Of a DNA stretch of 13,961 nt, positions 1 through 13,961 are shown in pieces (positions within the stretch are counted from its first letter, which is position 1; each line of letters starts with the position of its first letter). Below the pieces are notes generated by a model that did not search any database, was not told where the DNA came from, and was given only the letters and a program-made list of their open reading frames with translations. The stretch lies in the NCBI GenBank assembly GCA_018667995.1, contig JABIQT010000659.1:1-13961 (forward strand), given 5' to 3'. This DNA is from Candidatus Latescibacterota bacterium. GTDB taxonomy: Bacteria > JAAXHH01 > JABIQT01. The translations under genes and the position numbers were made by a program.

Positions 1-447
<447 letters not shown>

Positions 448-448
448 T

Positions 449-865
449 ATGGAGGATCGCGTCTTTTCCCTTGTAGTAGTAACGCCCGTTCGGCAGGTGT
501 TTGAAGGCCAAGTGCGCAGTCTGCAGGCACCAGGTACGGATGGCGACTTTGAAGTCCTGGTCGGACACATCCCTATGCTGACATCACTTCGGCCGGGCGT
601 AGTAACACTTCGAAATACGGATGGCAGGTCGATATATGCGATCAGTGGTGGCTTCGTTGAAGTCATGCGCCACGAGGCCACAGTCCTCGCAGAGACCATA
701 GAACGGGTAGACAGTATAGATGTCGAAAGAGCCCGTGACGCAGAGAAACGGGCCCAGGACCGGATTGAATCCGCGGCATCAACAAGTGTCGACATGTCCC
801 GCGCACAGTCAGCACTCGCTAGAGCTCAGAACAGATTGCGAGCAAGTCAACTCGCAAACAAATGA
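449..865 (+). CDS. atpC: ATP synthase F1 subunit epsilon
   Basis: Encodes 138 residues, the normal length for the epsilon subunit, which couples the gamma/c-ring rotor and regulates ATPase activity. The N-terminal beta-sandwich (about residues 1-85) contains FSLVVVTPVRQVFEGQV, GDFEVLVGHIPM and YAISGGFVEV, all at their family positions. An Arg/Ala-rich two-helix C-terminal region follows (about 88-138). I chose ATG 449 rather than an in-frame ATG at 407, because 407 lies inside atpD and adds 14 residues foreign to the family. An AAGGAG-like ribosome site lies in the last codons of atpD (430-435), and only one base separates the two genes, so translation is probably coupled. It is the last gene of the atp operon. 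Confidence 0.96.
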   Translation: MEDRVFSLVVVTPVRQVFEGQVRSLQAPGTDGDFEVLVGHIPMLTSLRPGVVTLRNTDGRSIYAISGGFVEVMRHEATVLAETIERVDSIDVERARDAEKRAQDRIESAASTSVDMSRAQSALARAQNRLRASQLANK

Positions 866-1353: not shown

Positions 1354-2511
1354 GTGAGACGAATAGCAATATGTTTAATTGCCCTGGCGATATTATCGGG
1401 GTATCCACTACAAACTGCGCACGCAATAACGTATTACGGAAGCAATGGATTAGTCCGGGTCTCATCCGCCAATAATGTATTTCAAGGTGATCTTTGGGGA
1501 ACCTTCAATTTCTCATACAACCAAGGTGGATTCTCGGTCGGTACCTACAAGAATGCCAGAGGCGCGGTCAATCTGCTATATGGTATTCGCCAATACCTGG
1601 AATTAGGTTTAAGCCAGGTAGTTTACCAAGATCAGGCAATCTTTGGCAATCCCGGAGGCGGACCGCTACGTGTGAGTTTGAAGGGCTCTCTTCCGCGATA
1701 TGCTCCCTCGACTGCAAATATTGCTGCACAATTAATCGGATTGATACCTGTGGGCAGTATCAGTAACGTTGAGCACGAATCTTACTACTCTGACAAACCA
1801 TCGGTGGGGGGCATGATAGTCGTCTCATTTGATTCCAATCCTGTGGATCTGAGAAGATCAAAACGTCTCCACATCAATCTTGGCTATATGTACCACAATG
1901 ATAAGAGTTCCTTCGTGCCCTCACTCGCAGGCACATCTTCAGGAGGGAAGAATACCCAACAACTTCTGGTGGGCGTGGCTGCTCAAGTACCAATGCGGGG
2001 AGCAAACACACTATTCGCAGAAATCAGCGGTGAACACTATCTGTCTGAAAACCCCAATCTGTTAATCTCGCAAACGACAACAGGTGCGCCTGCTTTTTTC
2101 CGATTGACACCGGGGGTCCGTAGTCAATTCAACAAATTCTATGTACAAGCTGGCATTGATATCACGGTGTCCAGCAATGGGACCTATGGATCCGATGGTG
2201 ATTTCGTCACAATATACCCCAAATGGAAATTCTTTGCGGGTTTCCAATATCGCATATTCGAGGGAATTCCGCCGACCTACCGCCGTGGCCGGAGCATGAG
2301 GATATCGGGCCGGTCGTATTATGGCTACGGACGAAGTGGCACCACCGATTCTCGAGGCGTAGGATCGGGAGTAATTCAAAACATCGGGGAGCGTGAGGAG
2401 TTGTTAGACCAGGTCGAAAGAGACTTACAAGAAATTCGAGAGCAGAGAATTAGAGCGCAGCGTGAACTCGAGGAATTGAGACGAACTCTCGAAGAAGAAC
2501 CGGGCAGGTAG
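1354..2511 (+). CDS. Exported outer-membrane beta-barrel-like protein with C-terminal coiled coil
   Basis: Encodes 385 residues. The start is GTG at 1354, preceded by GAGGGGG at 6 nt spacing. Residues 1-24 are a clear signal peptide (MRRIA, hydrophobic core, TAHA cleavage). Residues 25 to about 302 alternate polar and hydrophobic/aromatic residues with Gly/Asn turns, as in outer-membrane barrels, and a final strand KWKFFAGFQYRIF (290-302) ends in Phe like a barrel C-terminal strand. Unusually, the chain continues through an Arg/Gly/Tyr/Ser-rich linker (about 309-340) into a charged coiled coil (about 345-385) that would sit in the periplasm. The opening pattern (GSNGLVRVSSANNVFQGDL) recalls proteobacterial and FCB barrel families whose function is often unassigned. 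The next gene starts one base after its stop, so it is probably the outer-membrane component of this operon. The specific family is unknown to me. Confidence 0.75.
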   Translation: MRRIAICLIALAILSGYPLQTAHAITYYGSNGLVRVSSANNVFQGDLWGTFNFSYNQGGFSVGTYKNARGAVNLLYGIRQYLELGLSQVVYQDQAIFGNPGGGPLRVSLKGSLPRYAPSTANIAAQLIGLIPVGSISNVEHESYYSDKPSVGGMIVVSFDSNPVDLRRSKRLHINLGYMYHNDKSSFVPSLAGTSSGGKNTQQLLVGVAAQVPMRGANTLFAEISGEHYLSENPNLLISQTTTGAPAFFRLTPGVRSQFNKFYVQAGIDITVSSNGTYGSDGDFVTIYPKWKFFAGFQYRIFEGIPPTYRRGRSMRISGRSYYGYGRSGTTDSRGVGSGVIQNIGEREELLDQVERDLQEIREQRIRAQRELEELRRTLEEEPGR

Positions 2512-2512
2512 A

Positions 2513-5500
2513 ATGATGGCAGTTCAACAATCTGGGATATTGAGGAGTCGTTCTGTGTTCAATTGGTATCGGTTGATTCCGGCACTGCTATTAACAATAG
2601 CAATGATCACGCCGGGTGCGGCAAATGCGCAAGATCAAACGCAAGGTGCACTGGAACCGCCCGAAGAGATACCTTCCAGCGCAGATCAGCGTCGCGTGAC
2701 GCAGTTAATGGAAAAGCAGACGGAATCGATAGATAAGCTGGTCGATAACGAAAAGCGGATAGCCGAGCATCTCCGTTCATTCCGTAGGCTGGCATCTGAG
2801 CGAGCCAATCTCGAAAGACGAATCGGACGCGAACGGCTCGTAATTGACCGACTCAACGGTCTATCGAACGTCGTCCGACAACAGATTATTGACACAGATC
2901 GCAGCCGCTTAAATCTACGTGCATCACGAAATCTGATGGAAACAACCCAGACAATGCTTCTGGATCAAGCCTCCCAGATGAATGATCCTACAAAGCGGGA
3001 TATTCGGCTTGCCCAAATTGAAGAAAATGTAGTCGCAATCCGCGATTCTATGATAGAAATAATAAGTCCTCTTGACGTGGACCAGTTGGCGGAAATTGAC
3101 TTCAATCTGGCACTGGACTGGTATCTGAAATCGCAATATGCGCTGGTTGAACCACTGTTAGATGATTTTATCGAAACGTATCCAACTTCAGTCTACCACG
3201 ATGAAGCCATCCTGATGGTCGGTGATATTTATCGATTCCAATCACGCTACACCGAAGCTGAAGATGTATTTACAACCTTGACCACAAGCGAAACAACTGT
3301 AAACGACATCCGGGTACTTGCCTACGCTCTACTCCAGGATATATTTTACCGGCAAGCTCGCTGGGATGAGGCAATCGCGATATATCACACAGTGGCCAAT
3401 GAATTCCTGCTTTTTCCAGAAGGCTATGATGGGGCTGTATACATAGGGGCGGACAGCTACTATATGAAAGCACTTTCGCTTTCATCCGGATCCTCAGACG
3501 GTAGTGACCGTCCAGCTCCTATGACAACGGCACAGATAGCCCTTATGGATTCTGCCGCGGTCATATTCGATCAGGTCACAGATGCAAGCCCAGTCTATAT
3601 CCTCGCCCAGCAACAGATCGCACAGACATATATAGAATCTGGCCGTCTCCAGGAGGCAATCGAACCACTATTAAACGCTGAAAGTGCGCGCCCCCCTTTG
3701 TGGGCGGACGACATCATTTTTGAGTCCATGTGGATCGCAATGGCAAGACTGGGCCACGTATATTTGGAATTGGCCAGAGAGGCCGACCAATCGGGTTCCA
3801 ATATAGATGATGTGTTACGCTATCGTAATTTGGCGATGGAACAATACAGTAAGGTACCCCAAGAGTCGGACGTATATGATGAGGTCCTCCTTGCACTCGC
3901 CTGGATAGAAATCGAAAAGAACAACACAGAAAATGCAGTGCGACTCTTAGAACACCTACTTGATGTTCGACCGGATAGCGAATACGCGTACGAAGCGTGG
4001 GCCACCCTAGGTGACGGATATACCCGGCTCCGAGACTACGAACAGGCTCATGAGGTCTTTTCCCAGTTAAGTGTCACGCAGCGTGCAATAGCATTAGTGC
4101 AGGCGAGCATCCAAGAATCCTCAGAATTGGACGCTGTAAAACGGGAGCTTTCACGAATTTCTGCGATAGTAGAAACCGAAGGTGATATCGAAGCATTGGA
4201 TCAGGTTGCTGACCAGTTGGAGAATATTGAAGATCGTAAATTGCGAGTGACTGACATCCATAACCGTCTGTTTGAGGCGGATCCACTAGCAATGGAATTA
4301 GTCAATTACGGCCGCATCCAGACTACTATGGCCAGCATGTCCGGATTGATTGCTGCTGAAAAGGCGGTTCTGAATAGAGTCGATTCCGATCTTAGCACCA
4401 TTGAACGCCAGGCGATTGCTAGTCTCAGAAACCGCGATGCCGCAGCTAAGATTCGAAGCGAAGAACGGGGCATCAATAAATTACAGGCCATGGCGACCGC
4501 TTTCGAACGAAATGTAGCAAAAGACTTAGATATCCTAAGAAGGCAGGCACCGCCGGCATATGACGAATGGCTAAAGGAAGTAGCGTTCGGCAAGGTAAAT
4601 ATCGAATTTACGAAATACCAGAGCTACAAAAGCGCGCTACTTGATCAATATGAAATGGTTGGTAATGTTCTACGGGAAATCGAAGACCTCCCTGAGGACA
4701 ATGCCGTTAGAATGGATACGGAAACTGTTTTGGGCGATCTGCAATCTCAGGCAGAAGCCCTGGAGGGATTACTATCTGAAACGCGAAGAGTACTTGTGGC
4801 AGAATTGAACAACGTTATTGCCAGATACCCGGAAAGCAATAGCATAGAACCAATGCTCTTCCAACTTGCAGATGTGCAGTACGATCAGACCGAACGTGAT
4901 TTTCTCGAATCGAATGAGCGGTTCTCAGCAGCCTTTGACCGAGGTGAAGATCCTGGCGAATCGCCCTTGGCGGACTATAACACGCCAATACGAAGCTATG
5001 ACCGACTTATAAGAGAGTTCCCGCAATCAGAATTCGTTGATCAATCCCTTTTCCAATTAGGTCATCTTTTGAGCGAACAGGGAGAACTCGAACGTTCCAA
5101 TAGGATGTTCGAGCGATTAATCAATGAGTATCCCGAGAGCCCTCTCGTGGCCGACGCATATCTACGTGTAGGTGATTTTTACTTCGACGCGCTATTTCTT
5201 GGCCTGACCAATCTAGGCGGAGAGGAATTGATGCGACGGGCTATCAACGCCTACGATAGCCTCCTTGATTATCCAGCGAACAAGAACTTCCAAAGTGCTC
5301 TATATAAATTGGGATGGTCGTACTATAACTTGGCTGCACCTGAAGAGCGTGAGCATTTCTATGACGACTCAGTCGAGTACTTTACCTATCTACTGCAGGA
5401 TTCCTTGAGGGTCGCCCAATACAACCACATGGCAGAGGAAGCCGGTATTGATCCAGTTGCACTTGATCCCGGATATGATCTAACTGGAGAGGCAATAAAA

Positions 5501-6349
5501 TATATCGCGATTAACTTCCGTGATCGTGTAGAAACAGGTCGAGAAGAGGAACGAAGGAATTGGGCCACCGCCCCCGCTTCAATGAAAACATATGTGGAAG
5601 GACTGGGAGTTGATCAACCCTACGCGAGGCCATTGATGATGGCCATGGCAGAGGTCTATGCGGAGACAGGGCAGGTCGAAGCCGAAGTTACGGCTCTTGA
5701 TTCAGCCCTCACCGTATTTCCCAACGATCCCAAAGCACCGCGCATCATGCAGCGGATCATTGACGGTTACGAGCGTATCCAAGATATGGCGATAGTCGAC
5801 CCGGAAGTCTGGGAGATGGCAGCCCATAACAATGAGACTCCCGAAGTTTATCTGAACCGAGCAAGAGAACGTCTATTTAGAGAATACGGAAGGAAATGGG
5901 CCGAAGCCTTAGAGGATACAACTGCGCGCCGCGAAGCATTGGTACTCGCCGAACAAGCCGGATGGCGTCTCGCTAACTACGTTGCATCACTTGCTGAAGA
6001 CGGAACTGACAGTCAGACCGCAGGAATCGACAGGGCTGCACAATACTTCAATGACTATATGACAGATTTTCCGGAGAGTGCAAACGCCTATACCGCGAGA
6101 TGGAACTACTCTCAGTATATGTGGCGTCTCGAAAGGTATGATGAGGCCTATGCCGAGTTCATCACCGTCAGTAGAGATGCAGAGAAAGACAAATACCGAG
6201 AACAAGCAGCGATAAACGCTATATTGGCCGCAGAAAAACTGCTGGAGCAGGAACGGCAGGCTGTTCCTGCAACCAGCCCAGGAACAAATGCATCCCCAGC
6301 GGAATTACCGACGCTAGCGGACCCTAATGATTCAGGGAATAACCTCTAA
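2513..6349 (+). CDS. Giant exported TPR / coiled-coil periplasmic protein (1278 aa)
   Basis: A signal peptide (residues 1-39, hydrophobic core about 20-32, cleavage after GAANA) exports it to the periplasm. In order it has a charged coiled coil (about 57-180), a TPR block (about 195-525, with units such as YLKSQYALVEPLLDDFIETY and AVRLLEHLLDVRPDSEYAYE), a second long helical/coiled-coil region (about 535-765) and a second TPR block (about 765-965). Units in the last block, such as RSYDRLIREFPQSEFVDQSL, resemble BamD/CpoB-type TPRs. A helical C-terminal part contains one more TPR-like unit (about 1170-1245) and ends in a Pro/Ser/Asn tail. There is no catalytic motif. The architecture fits a protein scaffold rather than an enzyme. 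It starts one base after the barrel gene stops (an ATG at 2516 is an alternative start) and overlaps the next gene, so the three are probably translationally coupled. It is far larger than CpoB or Myxococcus AglT-type TPR proteins. Confidence 0.85.
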   Translation: MMAVQQSGILRSRSVFNWYRLIPALLLTIAMITPGAANAQDQTQGALEPPEEIPSSADQRRVTQLMEKQTESIDKLVDNEKRIAEHLRSFRRLASERANLERRIGRERLVIDRLNGLSNVVRQQIIDTDRSRLNLRASRNLMETTQTMLLDQASQMNDPTKRDIRLAQIEENVVAIRDSMIEIISPLDVDQLAEIDFNLALDWYLKSQYALVEPLLDDFIETYPTSVYHDEAILMVGDIYRFQSRYTEAEDVFTTLTTSETTVNDIRVLAYALLQDIFYRQARWDEAIAIYHTVANEFLLFPEGYDGAVYIGADSYYMKALSLSSGSSDGSDRPAPMTTAQIALMDSAAVIFDQVTDASPVYILAQQQIAQTYIESGRLQEAIEPLLNAESARPPLWADDIIFESMWIAMARLGHVYLELAREADQSGSNIDDVLRYRNLAMEQYSKVPQESDVYDEVLLALAWIEIEKNNTENAVRLLEHLLDVRPDSEYAYEAWATLGDGYTRLRDYEQAHEVFSQLSVTQRAIALVQASIQESSELDAVKRELSRISAIVETEGDIEALDQVADQLENIEDRKLRVTDIHNRLFEADPLAMELVNYGRIQTTMASMSGLIAAEKAVLNRVDSDLSTIERQAIASLRNRDAAAKIRSEERGINKLQAMATAFERNVAKDLDILRRQAPPAYDEWLKEVAFGKVNIEFTKYQSYKSALLDQYEMVGNVLREIEDLPEDNAVRMDTETVLGDLQSQAEALEGLLSETRRVLVAELNNVIARYPESNSIEPMLFQLADVQYDQTERDFLESNERFSAAFDRGEDPGESPLADYNTPIRSYDRLIREFPQSEFVDQSLFQLGHLLSEQGELERSNRMFERLINEYPESPLVADAYLRVGDFYFDALFLGLTNLGGEELMRRAINAYDSLLDYPANKNFQSALYKLGWSYYNLAAPEEREHFYDDSVEYFTYLLQDSLRVAQYNHMAEEAGIDPVALDPGYDLTGEAIKYIAINFRDRVETGREEERRNWATAPASMKTYVEGLGVDQPYARPLMMAMAEVYAETGQVEAEVTALDSALTVFPNDPKAPRIMQRIIDGYERIQDMAIVDPEVWEMAAHNNETPEVYLNRARERLFREYGRKWAEALEDTTARREALVLAEQAGWRLANYVASLAEDGTDSQTAGIDRAAQYFNDYMTDFPESANAYTARWNYSQYMWRLERYDEAYAEFITVSRDAEKDKYREQAAINAILAAEKLLEQERQAVPATSPGTNASPAELPTLADPNDSGNNL

Positions 6350-9300
6350 GCCAATGAGAAATACTACAATGAAGACCGCCCCAAACGAACCTAAAGACAT
6401 AGTGACGAAAACCTTATTACACCCCCGCTTGTCGAATATGTTGATTGGCGTATGTGTCTGCTTATCGATATGGATAGTGGGGCTCAACCCTCAGGCCGTT
6501 GTAGCCCAAGATGGGGCGTCTCGCGATGTAAGCACCCTGTTGGAGGAACTGGAAAACCTCGAACCAAAAACCACAGATCTCAGAATACGACCAGCCTCAG
6601 GGAAAATAGTAATCGAAGAAGTCGTTGAAGAGGTCATTGAAGAAGAAACAGTCGCCGCACCTAGCACCGGCCTAATAGATTCATTAATCTTTAATAGACT
6701 ATCACCGGCCCAACAAAAACTCGTCGCAAGCTACGACAACTTCATTGGACTCTTCCCGGAGCACGAACGTGTGCCCGAACTACTCTATAATACAGGTTCT
6801 ACGTATTTCGAGAAGGAACAGTTTCCAACCGCTCGACTTGTATACGTTCGATTATTGGACAATTATCCCGAAAGCACTTGGTACATAGGTTCGCTCTCAA
6901 ATATTGTCGAAAGCTACCGATTGGAGAAGGATTACAAGAACCTTGAACAGTGGTCAGACCGTCTGCTAAACGACGACCGGGCACCTGACAGCCTCAAGTC
7001 AATGAGCGAAACATTGGCCATTGGCGCGATAACAAATGATGCACATGACAGTTTCGAATCGGCCAAGGAGAGCGGTGACATTACTGCTATGATCGCGTCC
7101 GCTGAAGAGTATATCCGCGGTGCGACAACCTATCCCAATTCAGACAATGCGCCTACTTCCTTATACAATGCTGGATTTGCCTACAAACAAGCAGCCGGGC
7201 GATACAAAGAAACCGGGATGGAGGGTGATGCCTCAGCCGCATACGATAAGGCCGCTCTCGTGTGGCTTGATTTAGTAAGCAGATATGAAGTAGGCTATGC
7301 AGATACAGCTATGTGGGAAGCCGCATTGGCCTATGATGAAGGTGAGAAATTCACCGAAGCTATTGGTGTTTATGATCGTTTCCTCGTTGAATTTCCCGAG
7401 TCAGATTTCAGGTTAGATGCTCTAAAGAACAAGATCTTTGACTATAACGAATTGCAGGATTGGCCCAATGCCGCAGGATCGTATCAGCAATATGCCACTG
7501 AATTCCCGGAAGATGCTGGAGATGATAGGTCATATAAGGTCGCACTAGCTTGGTTAAAAGCTAAAGAACTGGACAATGCTTCTGCGTCCTTTGATAGATT
7601 CGCCAATGAAGATCCACGCAATCCCCTAGTTAAAGAAGTCCAATTTGAAATGGGTCAAGCCTATATAAAAGGCGGCGATTTAATCAAAGCAAACGAACAT
7701 TTCGATAGATTCGCCAAGGAAAATCCGGAAAACCCATTGGCCGTGAAGATTCATTACGATATAGGTGAGTATTATTATACTCGCAGTCAGTTTGACGAGG
7801 CTCAAACTAAGTATCATGATACGGTTGAGACCAGCGAAGAGCTGCAGAAAAAGGGACTCGATGGAAATAACTTCTTCCGTGGCGAGGCCTACATGCGTTT
7901 AGCTTCCATGTTACATCCTACCTACGATGAGATCCGACTCGCACTCCCCAAGGCCGCACTTGACGCAAGTTTTGAAGCCAAAAAAGATATGGGTGCCAAA
8001 CTTGAAGAATACTATGACGGAGCAATCCTCAGTGGATCTGTCCGCGGAGCCGAAGCGGCCTATCACTTAAGCGAGACCTACGAGGAGATGGCTGAGGCAT
8101 GGCTCACGCAGGAAGCTCCGACCCCAGCGACGGATATCCTTAAGCGCCAGGAAGAAATCAAGGAGTTGAATGCCAGTGCCATCGGATTTCTAACTCAGGC
8201 AATTGGACCCCTGGAATTGGTCAATTTAAAACGTGCTGGCGAATACGCAGATATCAAATACGATACGACTTGGAACGCGACCCATGATAGTGTGCTCACA
8301 GTAACCCAGGTAGATTCGACCGAGAGCGAATGGGTCACGCAGGCAAAAAGTCGCGTCGTCGACCTTCAACTAGAAATTGCTGAATTGGTCGCTCAACCAT
8401 ACACATACTTTCTGGACAATTTTTACAATGTGCCCGTTCCAAGAGCTCCAAAGAATATCGTCGATCAGTTGGGACGGGAACTCGCAGACATCATTGTCCC
8501 GAACACATTTTACACGCAGGGCTTGCAGGCCGTAGACGGGCAAATAACGAGTGAAGTATTGTCGTCGTTTCAGAAAGCAATCGATTACCGAAAACCATTA
8601 CCCGAGGGATTCGGGCTCACGGGACCTTCGATTGAACGTGCCCAGACTGAAGCCCTCCAGATGTTGTTAAGGCCCATCCGGATCAATGAGGGACGAATCC
8701 CCGGCCTCTTGGCCAGCTTTGATCAAAAATTAAGAGAATGGGAGTCTCTCACCGATAGTTTGTCCTATAAGCCAGAAACTATCGCTGACACATTCAAATT
8801 TGGTGATCTTCTTTACGCCACGTTGGATGGCCAAACACTACCTACCTACAGTGACATCGCACTTGAAATCGCCCGTCAAATGTCGCTAAAATACGAAGCG
8901 GTGATTGAGACTGCTATCTCAATGGGAATCGATCAAACTAGAGTAGACGGCCTGAAGATCAATCTTGTTGAATTTCAGTATGAAACAGGCGTCCGCTATC
9001 ACGACATCGCCAATTACACAGAAAACATCTCAAATCGTTACTTCGAGCGTGTTGCACAGATAGATTCAATCGTTGCGGACGGCGGCGAAAATGCTGACGC
9101 CTATGCCAACGCCGAAGCCTCATTGGTGTTGAATGACATGTCAACGAGTCCAGGCGGATTTGACGACTTGAACTTCAACCTACGCAACGCCTCTCTTGAG
9201 GTCTACGAAACCGGGTTCGGATATGAAGAGATTTATCCAGAAACTGCGGAAGTTATACGCCGAATACGCACCAAGTTGACGGAATTGGATCCGCAGATGT

Positions 9301-9932
9301 ATCCGCCTCCCGCCGAAAACTTCTACTTTACATACGAAACAGATACCACATGGGAATTAAATACTGCACCAGACAGAAGTTGGTCAGAAAGCGAATTTCT
9401 ACCCCCAGGATCAAGTTGGGATGAAGCTCAAATGGCGTCATTTCCAACTTCAATCACCCGACTCAATGGTTTGGAGACTTCAAGTGCAATGCCAATCTGG
9501 GGCGCCGGGCCAGACTCGATGGGGATAAATGCAGATTCCTTGGTATACGTGCGCAAGGAGTTTATGGTATATGGTACACCGGATTCTATACAAGCAATAG
9601 TTGCGTCCACTTCACCTTACGAGATATTCGTGAATGGTTTTAGTGCCGGGAAGTCTGAGATTGTCGATCCAAATATACCCCAGACATATGATCTAACGAT
9701 AAACGTGCTGCCCGAATCCAAGAATGTGATAGGCATAATAGTCGAAGGTCGGAGTACAGGAGACGGTCTGGTAGTTGAATTCCGCGGGGTTGATCGTGTA
9801 CCACAATCGAGTGCGGCGTTGGAAACCGTAAGAGCGTTCTATAGGCTCCCTTCCAGCATGCGCCGAATCCCGACGTCGGAACCTATGTCTCCTACAGACG
9901 GAACCGCGCAACCAGAATCTACAATACCTTAA
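6327..9932 (+). CDS. Giant exported TPR protein with C-terminal jelly-roll-like domain (1201 aa)
   Basis: A hydrophobic segment (about residues 36-52) ending PQAVVA|QD is a signal peptide with a long N-region. In-frame ATGs at 6354 and 6369 are equally plausible starts, and no start has a strong ribosome site; 6327 overlaps the previous gene by 23 bases. An acidic stretch (about 97-108, EEVVEEVIEEE) precedes a TPR array (about 125-510, with units such as YDRFLVEFPESDFRLDALKN). A long mostly helical region follows (about 510-985). Residues about 993-1158 are beta-rich, with YVRKEFMV, YEIFVNGF and NVIGIIVEG spaced as in galactose-binding-like jelly rolls found at the ends of glycosidases. A Pro/Ser/Thr-rich tail closes it. 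It is probably a second periplasmic scaffold that may touch polysaccharide or peptidoglycan. Binding is inferred from fold resemblance only. Confidence 0.83.
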   Translation: MIQGITSKPMRNTTMKTAPNEPKDIVTKTLLHPRLSNMLIGVCVCLSIWIVGLNPQAVVAQDGASRDVSTLLEELENLEPKTTDLRIRPASGKIVIEEVVEEVIEEETVAAPSTGLIDSLIFNRLSPAQQKLVASYDNFIGLFPEHERVPELLYNTGSTYFEKEQFPTARLVYVRLLDNYPESTWYIGSLSNIVESYRLEKDYKNLEQWSDRLLNDDRAPDSLKSMSETLAIGAITNDAHDSFESAKESGDITAMIASAEEYIRGATTYPNSDNAPTSLYNAGFAYKQAAGRYKETGMEGDASAAYDKAALVWLDLVSRYEVGYADTAMWEAALAYDEGEKFTEAIGVYDRFLVEFPESDFRLDALKNKIFDYNELQDWPNAAGSYQQYATEFPEDAGDDRSYKVALAWLKAKELDNASASFDRFANEDPRNPLVKEVQFEMGQAYIKGGDLIKANEHFDRFAKENPENPLAVKIHYDIGEYYYTRSQFDEAQTKYHDTVETSEELQKKGLDGNNFFRGEAYMRLASMLHPTYDEIRLALPKAALDASFEAKKDMGAKLEEYYDGAILSGSVRGAEAAYHLSETYEEMAEAWLTQEAPTPATDILKRQEEIKELNASAIGFLTQAIGPLELVNLKRAGEYADIKYDTTWNATHDSVLTVTQVDSTESEWVTQAKSRVVDLQLEIAELVAQPYTYFLDNFYNVPVPRAPKNIVDQLGRELADIIVPNTFYTQGLQAVDGQITSEVLSSFQKAIDYRKPLPEGFGLTGPSIERAQTEALQMLLRPIRINEGRIPGLLASFDQKLREWESLTDSLSYKPETIADTFKFGDLLYATLDGQTLPTYSDIALEIARQMSLKYEAVIETAISMGIDQTRVDGLKINLVEFQYETGVRYHDIANYTENISNRYFERVAQIDSIVADGGENADAYANAEASLVLNDMSTSPGGFDDLNFNLRNASLEVYETGFGYEEIYPETAEVIRRIRTKLTELDPQMYPPPAENFYFTYETDTTWELNTAPDRSWSESEFLPPGSSWDEAQMASFPTSITRLNGLETSSAMPIWGAGPDSMGINADSLVYVRKEFMVYGTPDSIQAIVASTSPYEIFVNGFSAGKSEIVDPNIPQTYDLTINVLPESKNVIGIIVEGRSTGDGLVVEFRGVDRVPQSSAALETVRAFYRLPSSMRRIPTSEPMSPTDGTAQPESTIP
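7593..7717 (+). repeat. Near-identical tandem TPR units
   Basis: The 14-base sequence GATAGATTCGCCAA occurs at 7593-7606 and again at 7704-7717, 111 bases (37 codons) apart. The encoded neighbouring TPR units read FDRFANEDPRNPLV and FDRFAKENPENPLA. This suggests a fairly recent in-frame duplication of one helical repeat within the second TPR protein. Confidence 0.6.
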
Positions 9933-9983
9933 CAAGCAGACAAACCAACTTCAGACTTAGCTGAAGGAAACAGAGACCCATAT

Positions 9984-10370
9984 ATGTACAAATCACTCCA
10001 CGATACTTTAAAAACACTATTTGAAATTCGGCGAATAATAGCCTTCAGTATATTCCTGATAGCAGCTGTGACCAGCTCAACACAACAAACTTGGGCTCAG
10101 GCAACCGCTCCGGATTCGGCGCAAACCGCAGCCCAGGTTGGTGATGTAGAGGGAGAGGATCGCGAAGCTATATTGATGGCTCCCATAACCGCCGAACCAG
10201 CTAGACCACTGATACAGTTTACCAATACACGCCCCAATGTCAGTTTCACAGAAGTTAGGGTAGGCCCTTCCTCGCGAACGTTCTATCCAGAACTGAGATT
10301 AGGGAGTGAAATGGAGGTGGGATCACCAGCAATAGATATTTTGGTATTATTCCCCGGCATTATTCCTTGA
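9984..10370 (+). CDS. Small exported protein of unknown function (128 aa)
   Basis: Residues 1 to about 39 form a signal peptide (basic RR near 17-18, core AFSIFLIAAVTSS, cleavage near TWAQA). The mature part is about 90 residues: an Ala/Gln/Glu-rich unstructured start, then a beta-rich segment (LIQFTNTRPNVSFTEVRVG ... FYPELRLGSEMEVG) and a hydrophobic C-terminus LVLFPGIIP. There is no lipobox Cys and no recognised domain. It lies 51 bases after the second TPR gene with GAAGGA at 9963-9968 (rather far from the ATG), so it is probably co-transcribed with the scaffold genes. It could be a small periplasmic adaptor of the same machine; that role comes from position alone. Confidence 0.65.
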   Translation: MYKSLHDTLKTLFEIRRIIAFSIFLIAAVTSSTQQTWAQATAPDSAQTAAQVGDVEGEDREAILMAPITAEPARPLIQFTNTRPNVSFTEVRVGPSSRTFYPELRLGSEMEVGSPAIDILVLFPGIIP

Positions 10371-10399
10371 CGTCCTATTAGGATTGCTTAATGTTGTAA

Positions 10400-10435
10400 T
10401 CGGGTAGTATAGAAACACCTTTCTAAGCAACCCGA
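10400..10435 (+). promoter_or_regulatory. Strong hairpin between scaffold and motor genes, with competing upstream pairing
   Basis: The 16-nt arms TCGGGTAGTATAGAAA (10400-10415) and TTTCTAAGCAACCCGA (10420-10435) pair around the loop CACC with only two mismatches and one G-U. There is no good T tract after it, so it is not a standard intrinsic terminator. The segment GGATTGCTTA (10381-10390) can pair with TAAGCAACCC (10424-10433), nine of ten pairs, competing for the same 3' arm. It may be a processing or stability element or an attenuator adjusting motor-gene expression relative to the scaffold genes. Confidence 0.5.
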
Positions 10436-10529
10436 AATCGTTTCCACAAACCACAAAATGTACACCAAATAAGGCACGGACTCCCGTTTCATGCCTGCAT
10501 TCATGTAATCGCTTAATGGAGGAAAGAAA

Positions 10530-11198
10530 ATGTTTGCTGAGTTTATGGAATTCTTAAGGACCTATTCCGAGGGTTATATGCCCACCGAGGAAGGTTTTAT
10601 ATTTCTATGGATTACGCTTACTGCTGGTGTGATTGGCGTAGTCCTAATCTTTGAAAGATGGAATTACCTCATCAAGAGGGCAAGCGTAAATAGTCAACGT
10701 TTCATGTTAGAAATAACGAAAATGATTAGCACCAACAAAATAGACAAAGCCATTGAGCTCTGCGACGCAGAGCCAGATGGAGCATTACCTCGCGTGTGCA
10801 AAAAAGGACTGCAACATGCAGGTACCGATGCAAGAATGATCCAGACGGCCGTTGATGAAGCCACCTTGGAAGTTCTTCCGTTACTCAGCAAGCGTGTTAG
10901 CTTCATTGCCATGATTGGCCAGGTCGCTACGCTACTTGGATTGCTTGGAACTGTATATGGTCTGATTAAGTCATTTAGCGCACTTGGGTCACCGAATATT
11001 GACCCAGCTCTCAAGGGTGCTATGCTTGCAGGTGGAATCTCAGCAGCACTCCTCTGCACCATGACGGGATTGATGGTGGCTGTACCGATGATCATAGCAA
11101 ATGCTTCATTCCGTGAGAAAATCACAGAAATCACCGATGACATCGATGAATACTCTGTGAAATTGATCAACATGCTGGCTGCGCGTACGTCGAACTAG
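10530..11198 (+). CDS. MotA/TolQ/ExbB-family proton channel protein
   Basis: Encodes 222 residues, the usual TolQ/ExbB size. It forms the inner-membrane pentamer that, with ExbD/TolR dimers, converts the proton gradient into mechanical work. TM1 is about 22-44; a cytoplasmic domain follows; TM2 is about 122-148, with the family signature LLGLLGTVYGLIKSF; TM3 is about 165-190, GGISAALLCTMTGLMVAVP. Thr141 and Thr177 match the channel-lining threonines of TolQ/ExbB. The TM3 Glu common in ExbB/TolQ (GIAEAL) appears to be Ala172 here. The start is fixed by TGGAGGA (10517-10523), well spaced before the ATG. It heads a motor module with two ExbD-like genes and a TonB-like gene, 159 bases after the previous gene. 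It is not a flagellar MotA: it is too short, and no MotB or flagellar genes are nearby. Confidence 0.93.
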   Translation: MFAEFMEFLRTYSEGYMPTEEGFIFLWITLTAGVIGVVLIFERWNYLIKRASVNSQRFMLEITKMISTNKIDKAIELCDAEPDGALPRVCKKGLQHAGTDARMIQTAVDEATLEVLPLLSKRVSFIAMIGQVATLLGLLGTVYGLIKSFSALGSPNIDPALKGAMLAGGISAALLCTMTGLMVAVPMIIANASFREKITEITDDIDEYSVKLINMLAARTSN

Positions 11199-11210
11199 GA
11201 GATTCGCAGG

Positions 11211-11732
11211 ATGGCATTCAAACCTTCTAAAGCAAGAACACATACGGAAGAAGCCGACGAACTCGATTTGACGCCTTATATGAACTTCGTCATGATTCTG
11301 ATACCGGTCATTATGGCCTCTTCGGAATATACGAAGTTGGCGATGATACCGATTGATCTGCCTTCTACCGGACCATCCTCACAGGCTGGAGATCCAAATG
11401 CTCCTCCGCCTGAAGAGGTAGCGAAACTATCCTTAGCTGTGTCCATTACCTCGCAGGGATTTACCATAACCTCGGAAAAAGCCAGACTCCCTATTATACC
11501 GCTTAAGGGAACCGAGTTCGATTATGAAGATCTCACCGCAAAACTCTGGGCTCTGAAGCAACAAGTACGAGGTCAGTTTCCTGATGAGAATGACATAGTC
11601 ATCGCATCAGCCCAAGATGTAAAGTACGAGGTCATAATAAAGACGATGGATGCAACCAGGGTCTTCATGGAAGACGGAATAAGGCCCAAAATGATGTTTC
11701 CTAACGTATCCCTGTCTCCGGGTATCACCTAG
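11211..11732 (+). CDS. ExbD/TolR-family protein A, atypical: Asn in place of the proton-carrying Asp
   Basis: Encodes 173 residues with the ExbD/TolR plan: a short cytoplasmic N-terminus, one TM helix (about 23-38) and a periplasmic domain. The segment before and into the TM reads LDLTPYMNFVMILIPVIMAS. In the family this is typically LxLTPLIDVxLxLLIFFM, with the Asp binding the translocated proton; here the aligned residue is Asn25 (codon AAC, 11283-11285), and a Pro lies mid-helix. The periplasmic part (VAKLSLAVSITSQGFTI, then NDIVIASAQDVKYEVIIKTM) has the expected ExbD beta-alpha pattern. AGGAG (11197-11201) overlaps the stop of the channel gene, 12 bases apart, so it is coupled to it. Its N-terminus MAFKPSK resembles the next gene's MAFAPSK, suggesting a duplicated pair. 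Confidence 0.88.
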   Translation: MAFKPSKARTHTEEADELDLTPYMNFVMILIPVIMASSEYTKLAMIPIDLPSTGPSSQAGDPNAPPPEEVAKLSLAVSITSQGFTITSEKARLPIIPLKGTEFDYEDLTAKLWALKQQVRGQFPDENDIVIASAQDVKYEVIIKTMDATRVFMEDGIRPKMMFPNVSLSPGIT

Positions 11733-11794
11733 TATCGAAAACACCCCTGTGTCTGAAGGACAAATGACGACGCAGCGGGAAAGGAGGAAGACAC

Positions 11795-12304
11795 ATGGCA
11801 TTTGCGCCATCTAAAGGCAAAAAGCATCAGGGAGAGGCGGGGGGGGGCGGCAAGATGGACCTCAATATGACCTCGCTCATCGATATGTTTACCTGCCTAC
11901 TGGCGTTCCTGCTTAAGTCCTTCTCTGCAGAAGGGGCTCTGGTAACACCATCAGAGGGTCTCGAACTACCGAAATCAATTGCGTCAGAGAAGGCCCGACC
12001 AGGGCTCACAGTTGAAATCGGACGAAATGAGATCGTAGTTGAAGGGGATCACGTCGGACCTACAGACGTATTCGCTCAAACAGACTACCAATCCTTACTT
12101 TCTGGTCCTATGTTTAAGGCACTCGAATCTAGGGCCAATGCAGCAAAGGCAATGGAACAGTACGGAACCAAATTTGAAGGCGAAGTGATCATCCAGGGCG
12201 ATATTGAGGTTCCATTTTCCGCCCTGTATCGTGTGATGTATCTATGCGCGATGAATGACTATGGAAAGATGCGGTTAATCGTAACCAGTCTAGCTGATTC
12301 CTAG
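11795..12304 (+). CDS. ExbD/TolR-family protein B, Asp retained
   Basis: Encodes 169 residues: a short Lys/Gly-rich cytoplasmic N-terminus (MAFAPSKGKKHQGEAGGGGK), one TM helix (about 27-43) and a periplasmic domain ending in the ExbD-like segment GEVIIQGDIEVPFSALYRVM. The TM entry reads MDLNMTSLIDMFTCLLAFLL, so the conserved proton-binding Asp is present (Asp30, codon 11882-11884), although the usual Thr-Pro is Thr-Ser. AAAGGAGG (11780-11787), 7 nt before the ATG, is a near-perfect ribosome site. With the preceding Asn-bearing paralogue it would form a mixed ExbD pair inside the channel protein. Codons 15-19 lie in a run of nine G, a possible slippage site; an in-frame ATG at 11855 (Met21) could give a shortened product. 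Confidence 0.9.
   Translation: MAFAPSKGKKHQGEAGGGGKMDLNMTSLIDMFTCLLAFLLKSFSAEGALVTPSEGLELPKSIASEKARPGLTVEIGRNEIVVEGDHVGPTDVFAQTDYQSLLSGPMFKALESRANAAKAMEQYGTKFEGEVIIQGDIEVPFSALYRVMYLCAMNDYGKMRLIVTSLADS
11839..11847 (+). repeat. Run of nine G in the early coding sequence of ExbD-like B
   Basis: Nine consecutive G bases lie 45-53 bases after the start codon, encoding part of a Gly stretch just before the transmembrane helix. Mononucleotide G tracts of this length inside a 5' coding region are classic slipped-strand mutation sites. A change of one or two bases would shift the frame before any functional domain. Confidence 0.9.
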
Positions 12305-12354
12305 AAAACGTAACGAGCATGCTGATTGCCAAGAATCCAATAGCATGTTCATGA

Positions 12355-12361
12355 GGGGAGG
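12355..12361 (+). promoter_or_regulatory. Ribosome binding site deciding the TTG start of the TonB-like gene
   Basis: GGGGAGG lies 8 nt before TTG 12370. The ATG at 12363 and the TTG at 12366 are in other frames, and the reading frame has no ATG near its beginning, so TTG is the likely true start. Confidence 0.7.
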
Positions 12362-12369
12362 GATGTTGC

Positions 12370-13479
12370 TTGTCAACCCCAAAGTCGAACGTCAGTTTCC
12401 CGCGTGAGTTCAAAAAGAGCGGGATAGAACAGGTAGACTGGAAATTGGTTAGCTTCGGGGCCATCATATTTTTCTTGGCCTTCGGTAGCGTATCCTTCTT
12501 TGCAAGTCTAGCCGAACCGGAAGTAGATCTTGAGCGCATTGCCGAAATGCAGAAGAGAGTTGCTCAGATCGCAATGCCCGAAACACCACCCGAACCGCCG
12601 CCTCCACCACCCGAGTTGGAAGAGGCGCCGGTAGAAGTGGCGGAAGTACAGGAAGAAGTACCACAGGTCGCCTCAACGGAACAGGCACCACGACCGAGTC
12701 GCGCCCAACAGCGCGCTTCGTCCAGCGGTGGCGGCGGTGGGGGAACTCCGAGTCGTGCTGAGGCCCGTGCAAAACGTGGCCAGGCACGTGCGGCAGCAGC
12801 GCAAGCTCTGGCACAACAGGGCGTGTGGGCTCAATTGACCACCAAAAGTGGTACCGGCGGCGCAGCGGCCGGTAACTTTGGCGGAAACGTTGCCGATTTA
12901 GAATCCAGTTTGGGACAGGTAGGTGGGGTCAAACGAGGAGGCACTTCAACATTTGATGGATCGGGCTCTGGTGCCGGCGTTGGGGAAGGCGCGGTTGTTG
13001 GACCAGCAGGCGGCCGAAGCTCGAGAGGCGGCGGAGGCGATGGAATGGATGTTGGCTCACTACTAGGTGGTGGTGTTGGGGGTGGAGGAGCAACAAGTCT
13101 CGGTGGAGATGGTGACGGACCGGGTGGTGGTGTTGATATCGATCTGGGCGCCATAGCTGGTTCGGGTGGCGGCGGAGCACCCCGTGATGATTCGCGCTCT
13201 GGTGCCGCTCTACAGAAGGTAATGCGCCAGAATCTCGGACCTGTACGATTCTGTTACCAACGTGAACTAAAACTCAATCCGAATTTGCAGGGCAGTTTGC
13301 AGCTAAGACTAACGATCGCGCCGAATGGTCGAGTTACAAAGATCGACATGGTGCAGGACACCGTCGGAAGCCGCAATCTTGCCCGCTGTGTTCAAGGCCG
13401 GATACGATCTTGGCGTTTCGAACCAGCAACCGGTACGTCCATTGTACCGATCACTTTACCGTTCTCGCCAAATGCATAG
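12370..13479 (+). CDS. TonB-like energy-transducing protein with AgmX/PglI C-terminal domain
   Basis: Encodes 369 residues. A cytoplasmic N-terminus (1-26) is followed by one TM helix (about 27-47), then a Glu/Pro-rich segment (about 70-110, ETPPEPPPPPPELEEAPVEV) as in TonB. A very Gly-rich spacer (about 119-270) could span the periplasm. The folded C-terminal domain (about 278-366) reads VMRQNLGPVRFCYQREL, GSLQLRLTIAPNGRVTKIDM and ARCVQGRIRSWRF. This is the AgmX/PglI C-terminal domain known from Myxococcus gliding proteins, a TonB-C-like fold whose two Cys (295 and 340) may form a disulfide. It is expected to carry force from the ExbB/ExbD motor to periplasmic or outer-membrane partners. The TTG start is supported by the ribosome site at 12355-12361. 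It is the last gene of the operon, with a strong terminator downstream. The Gly-rich coding DNA is GC-rich and repetitive, so its length may vary between strains. Confidence 0.9.
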   Translation: MSTPKSNVSFPREFKKSGIEQVDWKLVSFGAIIFFLAFGSVSFFASLAEPEVDLERIAEMQKRVAQIAMPETPPEPPPPPPELEEAPVEVAEVQEEVPQVASTEQAPRPSRAQQRASSSGGGGGGTPSRAEARAKRGQARAAAAQALAQQGVWAQLTTKSGTGGAAAGNFGGNVADLESSLGQVGGVKRGGTSTFDGSGSGAGVGEGAVVGPAGGRSSRGGGGDGMDVGSLLGGGVGGGGATSLGGDGDGPGGGVDIDLGAIAGSGGGGAPRDDSRSGAALQKVMRQNLGPVRFCYQRELKLNPNLQGSLQLRLTIAPNGRVTKIDMVQDTVGSRNLARCVQGRIRSWRFEPATGTSIVPITLPFSPNA

Positions 13480-13602: not shown

Positions 13603-13961
13603 TTACTGGTGCCGATGATGAGATAATATCACCATTGACAGTACAAGCAAGACGCCTGCCACCGAGATTACCAGTCCCCAAGTTACTGCCGCAGATTCGT
13701 AACGCATTACAACCTGATGTCTACCGCTTCTGAGAGCCACGGCCCTCATGGTATCGTTTGCCTTCAAAATCTCAACCTTCTCGCCGTCGATATAAGCTTT
13801 CCATGCTGGATAATAGACCTCGCCCAAAACCAGGATACCCGGCGAATCTAATGAGACATCCAAAGAAATTGAATTTGGGAGATGCTCGGTGATCACCGGG
13901 CTTTCCGCTTCCGTGACGGGGGAGTCCAATAGTAGCAGGCTAGGGTCATTACCCAGAATAA
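13603..13961 (-). CDS. YfhO-like membrane protein, C-terminal part (5' end outside window)
   Basis: The minus-strand frame is open from the window edge to a TAA at 13603-13605, giving the last 118 codons or so. The apparent TTG start near 13929 is internal, because the frame continues upstream (ILGNDPSLLLLD). The segment PGILVLGEVYYPAWKAYIDG followed by ILKANDTMRAVALRSGRHQV is the characteristic periplasmic/extracytoplasmic end of YfhO-family glycosyltransferase-like membrane proteins, ahead of a final TM helix (WGLVISVAGVLLVLSMVIL) and a short basic tail. These large multi-spanning proteins are linked to glycosylation of envelope polymers in Firmicutes; in Gram-negative phyla the role is mostly unknown. 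It is convergent to the envelope operon and separated from it by the terminator, so it is not part of that operon. Confidence 0.8.
   Translation of the reverse strand, partial: ILGNDPSLLLLDSPVTEAESPVITEHLPNSISLDVSLDSPGILVLGEVYYPAWKAYIDGEKVEILKANDTMRAVALRSGRHQVVMRYESAAVTWGLVISVAGVLLVLSMVILSHHRHQ

Follow-up and report, generated by a model that had tools for sequence, protein, structure and literature searches.

A probable branch of the Myxococcus gliding and spore-coat motor family encoded beside ATP synthase genes in several uncultured phyla

Results and Discussion

Gene content of the locus

The window, i.e., the whole stretch of DNA analyzed here, corresponds to one complete contig of 13,961 bp from a MAG with a size of 6.06 Mb. 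Eight ORFs, all on the + strand and located where the original prediction had placed them, form the co-directional block that it had described, with intergenic gaps of 1 to 159 nt and an overlap of 23 nt between the ORFs of the two large TPR proteins (TPR1 and TPR2). The block lies directly 3′ of atpDC. This linkage, which recurs in other phyla, had been overlooked in the original prediction, as had the fact that the convergent gene after position 13479 is of the YfhO type and truncated. The features of the window are the following:

88..865, + strand: 3′ end of atpD (from the window edge) and atpC; F-ATPase operon directly upstream, a recurrent neighbor given as context only, outside the machine
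1354..2511, + strand: predicted outer-membrane β-barrel, 385 aa, signal peptide, ~14 strands, C-terminal periplasmic coiled coil at aa 334–381 (AlphaFold2, Foldseek, homologues)
2513..6349, + strand: TPR1, 1278 aa, exported; aa ~165–760 GltC-like (FG1 family), aa ~728–1254 N-terminal part of a GltD-like giant (profile comparison)
6327..9932, + strand: TPR2, 1201 aa, exported; aa ~115–730 C-terminal part of the GltD-like giant; aa ~995–1170 predicted jelly roll, rhamnosidase/GH2/lectin sugar-binding-like (profile comparison, structure model)
9984..10370, + strand: small exported protein, 128 aa, GltF/CglF-like (position and weak profile match)
10530..11198, + strand: ExbB/AglR-like proton-channel subunit, 222 aa (Pfam, tree)
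11211..11732, + strand: ExbD (AglQ position), 173 aa, Asn (LTPYMN) replacing the proton-relay Asp (Pfam, residue comparison)
11795..12304, + strand: ExbD′ (AglS position), 169 aa, Asp kept (MTSLID) (Pfam, residue comparison)
12370..13479, + strand: GltG-like AgmX/TonB transducer, 369 aa; FPREF motif, one transmembrane helix, Pro-/Gly-rich stretch, AgmX C-terminal domain, no FHA domain (Pfam/NCBIfam)
13603..13929, − strand: YfhO-type membrane glycosyltransferase gene, truncated and convergent; context only (gene calls, neighbors)

The gap of 488 bp between atpC and the barrel gene (866–1353) contains no ORF of note and possibly harbors a separate promoter. Searches against Pfam and NCBIfam yielded matches to MotA_ExbB (4e-27), to ExbD for both paralogues (1e-11 and 5e-12) and to TPR families in both giant proteins, as well as to the AgmX/PglI C-terminal domain in the tail of the transducer (NF033768, 8e-24, 83.6 bits at a cut-off of 40 bits). 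The GltG profile also matched the transducer, at 4e-20 and below its equivalog cut-off. A cytoplasmic FP(R/K)EF motif preceding the transmembrane helix is common to the transducers of the window (12370–12460), L132, L161, L204, and L230 and is possibly a motor-docking element.

Distribution and conserved neighborhood

In the order to which the genome of the window belongs, the system was found in three of the 16 genomes examined, and gene order and orientation are common to three genera. The sister genome G011 shows an identical arrangement (atpHAGDC, barrel, TPR1, TPR2, small protein, ExbB, ExbD, ExbD′, AgmX, YfhO), with TPR2 spanning two contigs, and in G013 the order is identical from TPR1 onward, its barrel gene following atpC on another contig. 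In those other genomes of the order that were read around atpC, no cluster gene was found after it and YfhO/glycosyltransferase genes were located a few kb beyond, a picture that would fit a clean gain or loss of the block.

Across the domain, AgmX-domain genes above the cut-off are present in 80 of 384 genomes. Since a scan of the named genomes with the TPR1 sequence alone gave no matches, ExbB was taken as anchor there. Around the AgmX genes and 80 named ExbB relatives the same order recurs, namely a TPR gene (700–1000 aa), a giant TPR gene (1000–1900 aa), a small exported protein (80–170 aa), ExbB, ExbD, ExbD′, and AgmX. Among the 54 ExbB-anchored loci with at least 7 kb of upstream sequence, the giant TPR was found in 40 and atp genes in 17. 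Of the named loci, 43 combine giant TPR, two ExbD, and AgmX; in 42 of these a small ORF immediately precedes ExbB, and in 15 atp genes lie upstream. As the gene order is kept in two other genera of the order and in these 43 named loci, which were reached independently via ExbB, it is not a product of chance. An F-ATPase operon directly upstream was also observed in G359, G205, G230, G309, and G022. That barrel and TPR genes would fail to be co-conserved with the motor genes had been named in the original prediction as the finding that would speak against it; instead, they are co-conserved across phyla.

The carriers are labeled as Calditrichota, KSB1, LCP-89, Zixibacteria, Raymondbacteria (a Fibrobacterota group), Electryoneota (Tariuqbacter), Bacteroidota MAGs, and Myxococcota, and other loci from Fibrobacterota and Bdellovibrionota contain the motor genes in a different arrangement. 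The labels of several MAGs may be wrong. L203, L204, and L261, labeled Actinomycetota, Caldisericaceae, and Acetofilamentum, hold clusters resembling those of KSB1, Calditrichota, and other FCB bacteria and probably stem from mislabeled MAGs. A gene of ~590 aa following AgmX in Calditrichota was considered as a further component and dismissed, its start resembling, by eye, aspartyl-tRNA synthetase.

The TPR proteins correspond to GltC and GltD

The relationship of the two large TPR proteins to those of other phyla was examined with two families, FG1 (the upstream TPR family, 33 sequences) and FG2 (the giant TPR family, 37 sequences). FG1 matches TPR1 165–762 (HHalign probability 99.8% for TPR1 165–638). 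Columns 58–526 of FG2 match TPR1 741–1254, and columns 531–1506 match TPR2 115–1152. These positions imply a break in the giant gene near column 528 in the lineage of the window, with the leading third becoming joined to the gene upstream, and the summed TPR length is approximately equal in both arrangements (876 + 1558 aa in G359, 1278 + 1201 aa in the window). A sequencing frameshift as the origin of the split was rejected, given that the boundary is the same in three genera and that TPR2 possesses its own N-terminal hydrophobic segment. A giant GltD-like gene is also split in G296 (L297 with L163), into ORFs of 732 and 1345 aa which follow a GltC-like gene of 751 aa; fission has hence occurred more than once.

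FG2 aligned with delta-type GltD over 954 columns (E 2e-153). Successive parts of GltD were matched in HHalign by TPR1 728–1236 (1.6e-50) and TPR2 124–681 (1.4e-38), and the GltD of G043, whose gene adjoins a GltE scoring 772 bits, was matched by the TPR1 profile at 1e-26 and by the giant-TPR profile at 2e-105. Since similarity between TPR proteins can easily feign a deep relationship, the alignments were checked for colinearity and against off-register controls, the latter reaching 4e-21 or weaker. Generic TPR matching as the source of the similarity was rejected, the best alignments being colinear and the off-register ones roughly 20 or more orders of magnitude weaker. Judged by these profile comparisons, the C-terminal half of TPR1 together with TPR2 is one GltD split in two. 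The N-terminal half of TPR1 appears to be GltC-like by way of an indirect chain, with FG1 matching the delta upstream TPR protein (1.8e-22) and one such protein (L213) matching NCBIfam GltC (3.6e-16).

The locus has no gene for the TPR lipoprotein GltE, and in the genome of the window (G000), G011, G013, G359, and G342 the curated cut-off of 225 bits was not reached, compared with a score of 772 bits in G043. Because of this absence we regard the cluster as a variant, not a member, of the Agl-Glt/Nfs core complex.

Jelly-roll domain and small exported protein

The GltD alignment ends before the C-terminal part of TPR2, and the domain found there is absent from GltD. An alignment of 22 C-terminal sequences of the giant TPR family (A5) matched a rhamnosidase (3w5m, 2e-18) and a lectin (6kbj, 4e-14). 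Glyco_hydro_2_N or Bac_rhamnosid_N was matched in several family members, though not in the window member alone. In the AlphaFold2 model (pLDDT 77.9) the domain forms a beta sandwich, and the structures closest to it are GH2 enzymes, with the similarity lying over their sugar-binding-like accessory domain. By its predicted fold the domain would thus be a sugar-binding-like jelly roll; it may also be structural instead of sugar-binding.

A profile of the small proteins, built without the protein at the GltF/CglF position, matched the window protein weakly (E 0.0096), that of G011 at 0.0015, and the gene at the GltF/CglF position of L121 at 3.9e-6. The protein at this position in turn matches NCBIfam CglF (1e-19), and CglF equals GltF according to the literature. 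HHalign of the window protein against its family was not significant, so that the assignment relies on HMMER, position, and motif. With a weak match and a firm position in the window, the small proteins probably form one family with the GltF-position gene. GltF has been held to be restricted to Myxococcales and Bdellovibrionales, and the same paper describes an additional core gene that lacks homologues there (Luciano et al., 2011; PMC3169522). Our comparison suggests that GltF and this extra core gene belong to the same family.

The outer-membrane barrel

The first gene of the block matched no family in Pfam or NCBIfam, and hence no receptor or plug domain. An AlphaFold2 model of low confidence (mean pLDDT 58.6, from an alignment of three rows) shows 14 antiparallel strands and a C-terminal helix at 334–381. 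The top Foldseek matches of this model are exclusively outer-membrane barrels, with porin-like folds as the best PDB matches. The model is in line with the outer-membrane barrel bearing a coiled coil that had been predicted from the sequence. The view that the barrel is unique to the window was abandoned once homologues had been found: full-length ones (E < 1e-25) are present in 19 of the 384 genomes, from 14 families, and every one of these genomes is also AgmX-positive (80 such genomes in total; hypergeometric 2e-14, with no correction for kinship). The barrel gene adjoins the cluster in G011, G342/L230, G211, G335, and L247 and is unlinked elsewhere.

The charged coiled-coil tail of the barrel recurs in several distant copies. 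In addition, the small exported protein of G013 (L056:7369-7890) carries an added C-terminal tail near-identical to this coiled coil (GVIQNLEERQELLDRVEEEL...), which suggests a shared docking site. In G359, two tandem barrel homologues, one of them with an in-frame stop, are located far from the cluster (G359:C1:4418842-4421154).

An asymmetric ExbB/ExbD/ExbD′ motor

At the site of the transmembrane proton-relay Asp, the two ExbD paralogues differ. Of 76 named loci, 63 have Asn at this site of the first ExbD, nine Asp, and four Gly/Ser (89 Asn, 13 Asp, and six Gly/Ser if the loci of the G-numbered genomes are added), whereas the second ExbD has Asp in all 76. First ExbD proteins with Asp are mostly from Bdellovibrionota. 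Asp is present in both ExbD of the AglRQS-like motor of the Myxococcus-like G043, where their lengths (162 + 194 aa) equal those of AglQ and AglS, and also in both ExbD of a second locus in the genome of the window (G000:C251:2817-6437, L002; TPR-ExbB-ExbD-ExbD-TonB). Nine loci of the Fibrobacterota type (L199, L202, L205, L209, L224, L227, L233, L239, and L265) contain an ORF of ~430 aa between ExbB and the last ExbD which matches both the ExbB and the ExbD profile, apparently an ExbB-ExbD fusion beside a free ExbB.

The substitution D28N in AglQ abolishes proton conductance (PMC3858216), and the lineage of the window thus naturally carries this change at the AglQ position. In a 2022 review of 5:2 motors (PMC9389320), the question of whether AglQ pairs with AglS or each forms homodimers is described as unsettled. 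An Asn fixed in one paralogue across phyla, with the Asp kept in the other, is hard to explain unless the two form a heterodimer, and the simplest reading of the Asn/Asp pair would be a heterodimeric axle with one active acid. It is conceivable, and we put it forward tentatively, that a widespread 5:2 motor with an obligate heterodimeric axle and a single protonatable chain (five, not ten, protons per turn) is the usual form in the Agl-Glt-like family across several phyla, coupled to a barrel and to a scaffold that grips polysaccharide by means of a sugar-binding domain of its own.

Relation to known systems

The original prediction had recognized a resemblance to Agl-Glt while treating the cluster as a candidate undescribed system whose giant TPR pair and gene order match nothing known. 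Profile comparison and synteny support the former; the latter had to be given up, since the pair represents GltC and GltD with a shifted gene boundary and the genes are arranged as in the Agl-Glt/Nfs core complex (gltC, D, E, G and aglR, Q, S; PMC3169522) minus GltE. The window contains an aglR/aglQ/aglS-type trio of one ExbB and two different ExbD, a GltG-type transmembrane transducer with AgmX/TonB tail, exported TPR proteins of the GltC and GltD type and, with a conserved position but a weak profile match to the GltF family, a small additional exported gene, clustered together as in the core complex. It differs from the latter by lacking GltE and the FHA domain on the GltG-like protein, by the split GltD with its N-terminal part fused to GltC, and by the addition of the jelly roll, a dedicated barrel with coiled coil, and the F-ATPase linkage; furthermore, Asp is not found in both ExbD, the first one carrying Asn. 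Myxococcus AglRQS likewise combines one ExbB with two different ExbD to drive a GltG-type arm, but is encoded apart from its transducer. The recently described vWA force transducers (MBE 2025; PMC12204202) share with the window a TPR gene, one TolQ, and two heterologous TolR-like genes, yet end in a vWA fold, whereas the window transducer ends in an AgmX/TonB fold; the paper mentions neither AgmX/GltG nor Calditrichota. With regard to type IX gliding, no match to GldL/GldM was obtained, PorW/SprE being the only type IX match, via TPR repeats and far below the cut-off.

In Fibrobacter succinogenes, the cluster FSU_2396-2403 (PMC6851124; PMC4619616) encodes OmpA, TPR, TPR (84 + 147 kDa), ExbB, ExbD, ExbD, and TonB, a likeness based on published order and annotation. 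An OmpA-family protein takes the place of the barrel, and the TPR boundaries differ. These genes are upregulated on cellulose (PMC6851124; PMC4619616), and a complex containing cellulases and a fibro-slime protein was reported to include the OmpA protein and one TPR protein. In the rumen, expression of the eight-gene cluster is high (PMC8092306). The TonB-ExbBD genes were interpreted by the authors as serving cellodextrin import, with the adhesion complex as a separate entity (PMC6851124); our comparison by analogy suggests that the TPR and ExbBD-TonB genes might encode one machine.

Proposed function

The product of the locus is probably a PMF-driven transport machine that spans the envelope and represents a variant of the Agl-Glt/Nfs class, and the trans-envelope motor postulated in the original prediction is supported by parts of this type. 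In the mechanism that we envisage, an ExbB pentamer would surround one ExbD and one ExbD′ chain paired as a heterodimer. Protons would be taken up solely by the chain with the Asp, five per turn and not ten, and their flow would move the AgmX arm. Reaching across the peptidoglycan, the arm would exert a pull on the GltF-like protein and on the TPR scaffold. The scaffold in turn would engage the barrel, perhaps via the coiled coil of the latter, and polysaccharide via the jelly roll, and an adhesion or polymer complex of the outer membrane would thereby be transported or kept under tension. Agl-Glt and Nfs are PMF-dependent surface-transport systems for slime or spore-coat polymer (PMC3858216). 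This polymer transport, together with the cellulose data from Fibrobacter, favors gripping, moving, or tensioning of polysaccharide over gliding, nutrient import, and Tol-like constriction. By analogy, handling of, or traction on, surface or substrate polysaccharide appears to be the most likely output, and whole-cell gliding by this machine is possible.

That the cluster is a true gliding engine of the Myxococcus kind, in which substrate-anchored motor complexes propel the cell, might be assumed from the presence of GltC, GltD, GltF, GltG, and AglRQS homologues in one cluster. We consider this unlikely, as GltE was not found at the locus or, at the cut-off used, in the genome, the Asp on which AglQ depends is missing from the first ExbD, and the core genes alone are insufficient for gliding according to Luciano et al. 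(PMC3169522). A Ton-type importer, in which ExbB/ExbD/TonB energize the uptake of large sugars via the barrel (the role suggested for the homologues in Fibrobacter; PMC6851124), would account for the TonB_C domain, the outer-membrane barrel, the sugar-binding-like domain, and the induction of those homologues on cellulose. Ton systems, however, work with a plugged TonB-dependent receptor and do not need a giant TPR scaffold. The barrel of ~14 strands has no plug domain and no Pfam receptor match, the AgmX tail groups with GltG and not with TonB, and the genome has another ExbB-ExbD-ExbD-TonB locus, all of which makes an importer improbable.

Likewise improbable is a machine akin to Tol-Pal that constricts or maintains the outer membrane. 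Although TolQ is the best NCBIfam match of ExbB (7.7e-21, far below the cut-off) and the TPR proteins resemble YbgF/CpoB, the window ExbB does not group with TolQ in the tree, the genome has a separate TolQ-TolR locus elsewhere, TolB and Pal are absent from the cluster, and occurrence in three of 16 genomes of the order is unlike that of a housekeeping function. The exclusion of Ton, Tol, and flagellar roles in the original prediction is supported. A device for outer-membrane assembly or export, secreting polymer or lipid through the barrel without moving attached material, we regard as very unlikely: the barrel does belong with the system and a sugar-binding-like domain is present, but in a non-exhaustive look at the neighborhoods of the named ExbB loci no glycan-synthesis or export gene was recognized as recurrently traveling with the cluster, and polymers are still exported by Agl-Glt/Nfs mutants (PMC3858216).

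Taken as a variant of the Agl-Glt/Nfs class, the cluster is a previously unreported branch of the Myxococcus gliding and spore-coat motor family, located beside ATP synthase genes in several uncultured phyla, and the machine class now extends to Calditrichota, KSB1, LCP-89, and Zixibacteria. The distribution of the barrel ties it to this class of machines, and that of the small exported protein suggests that GltF was part of the ancestral core. Owing to the Asn fixed in the first ExbD, the number of protons per turn becomes open to direct testing, and a single machine would unite the cellulose-induced TPR and ExbBD-TonB genes of Fibrobacter.
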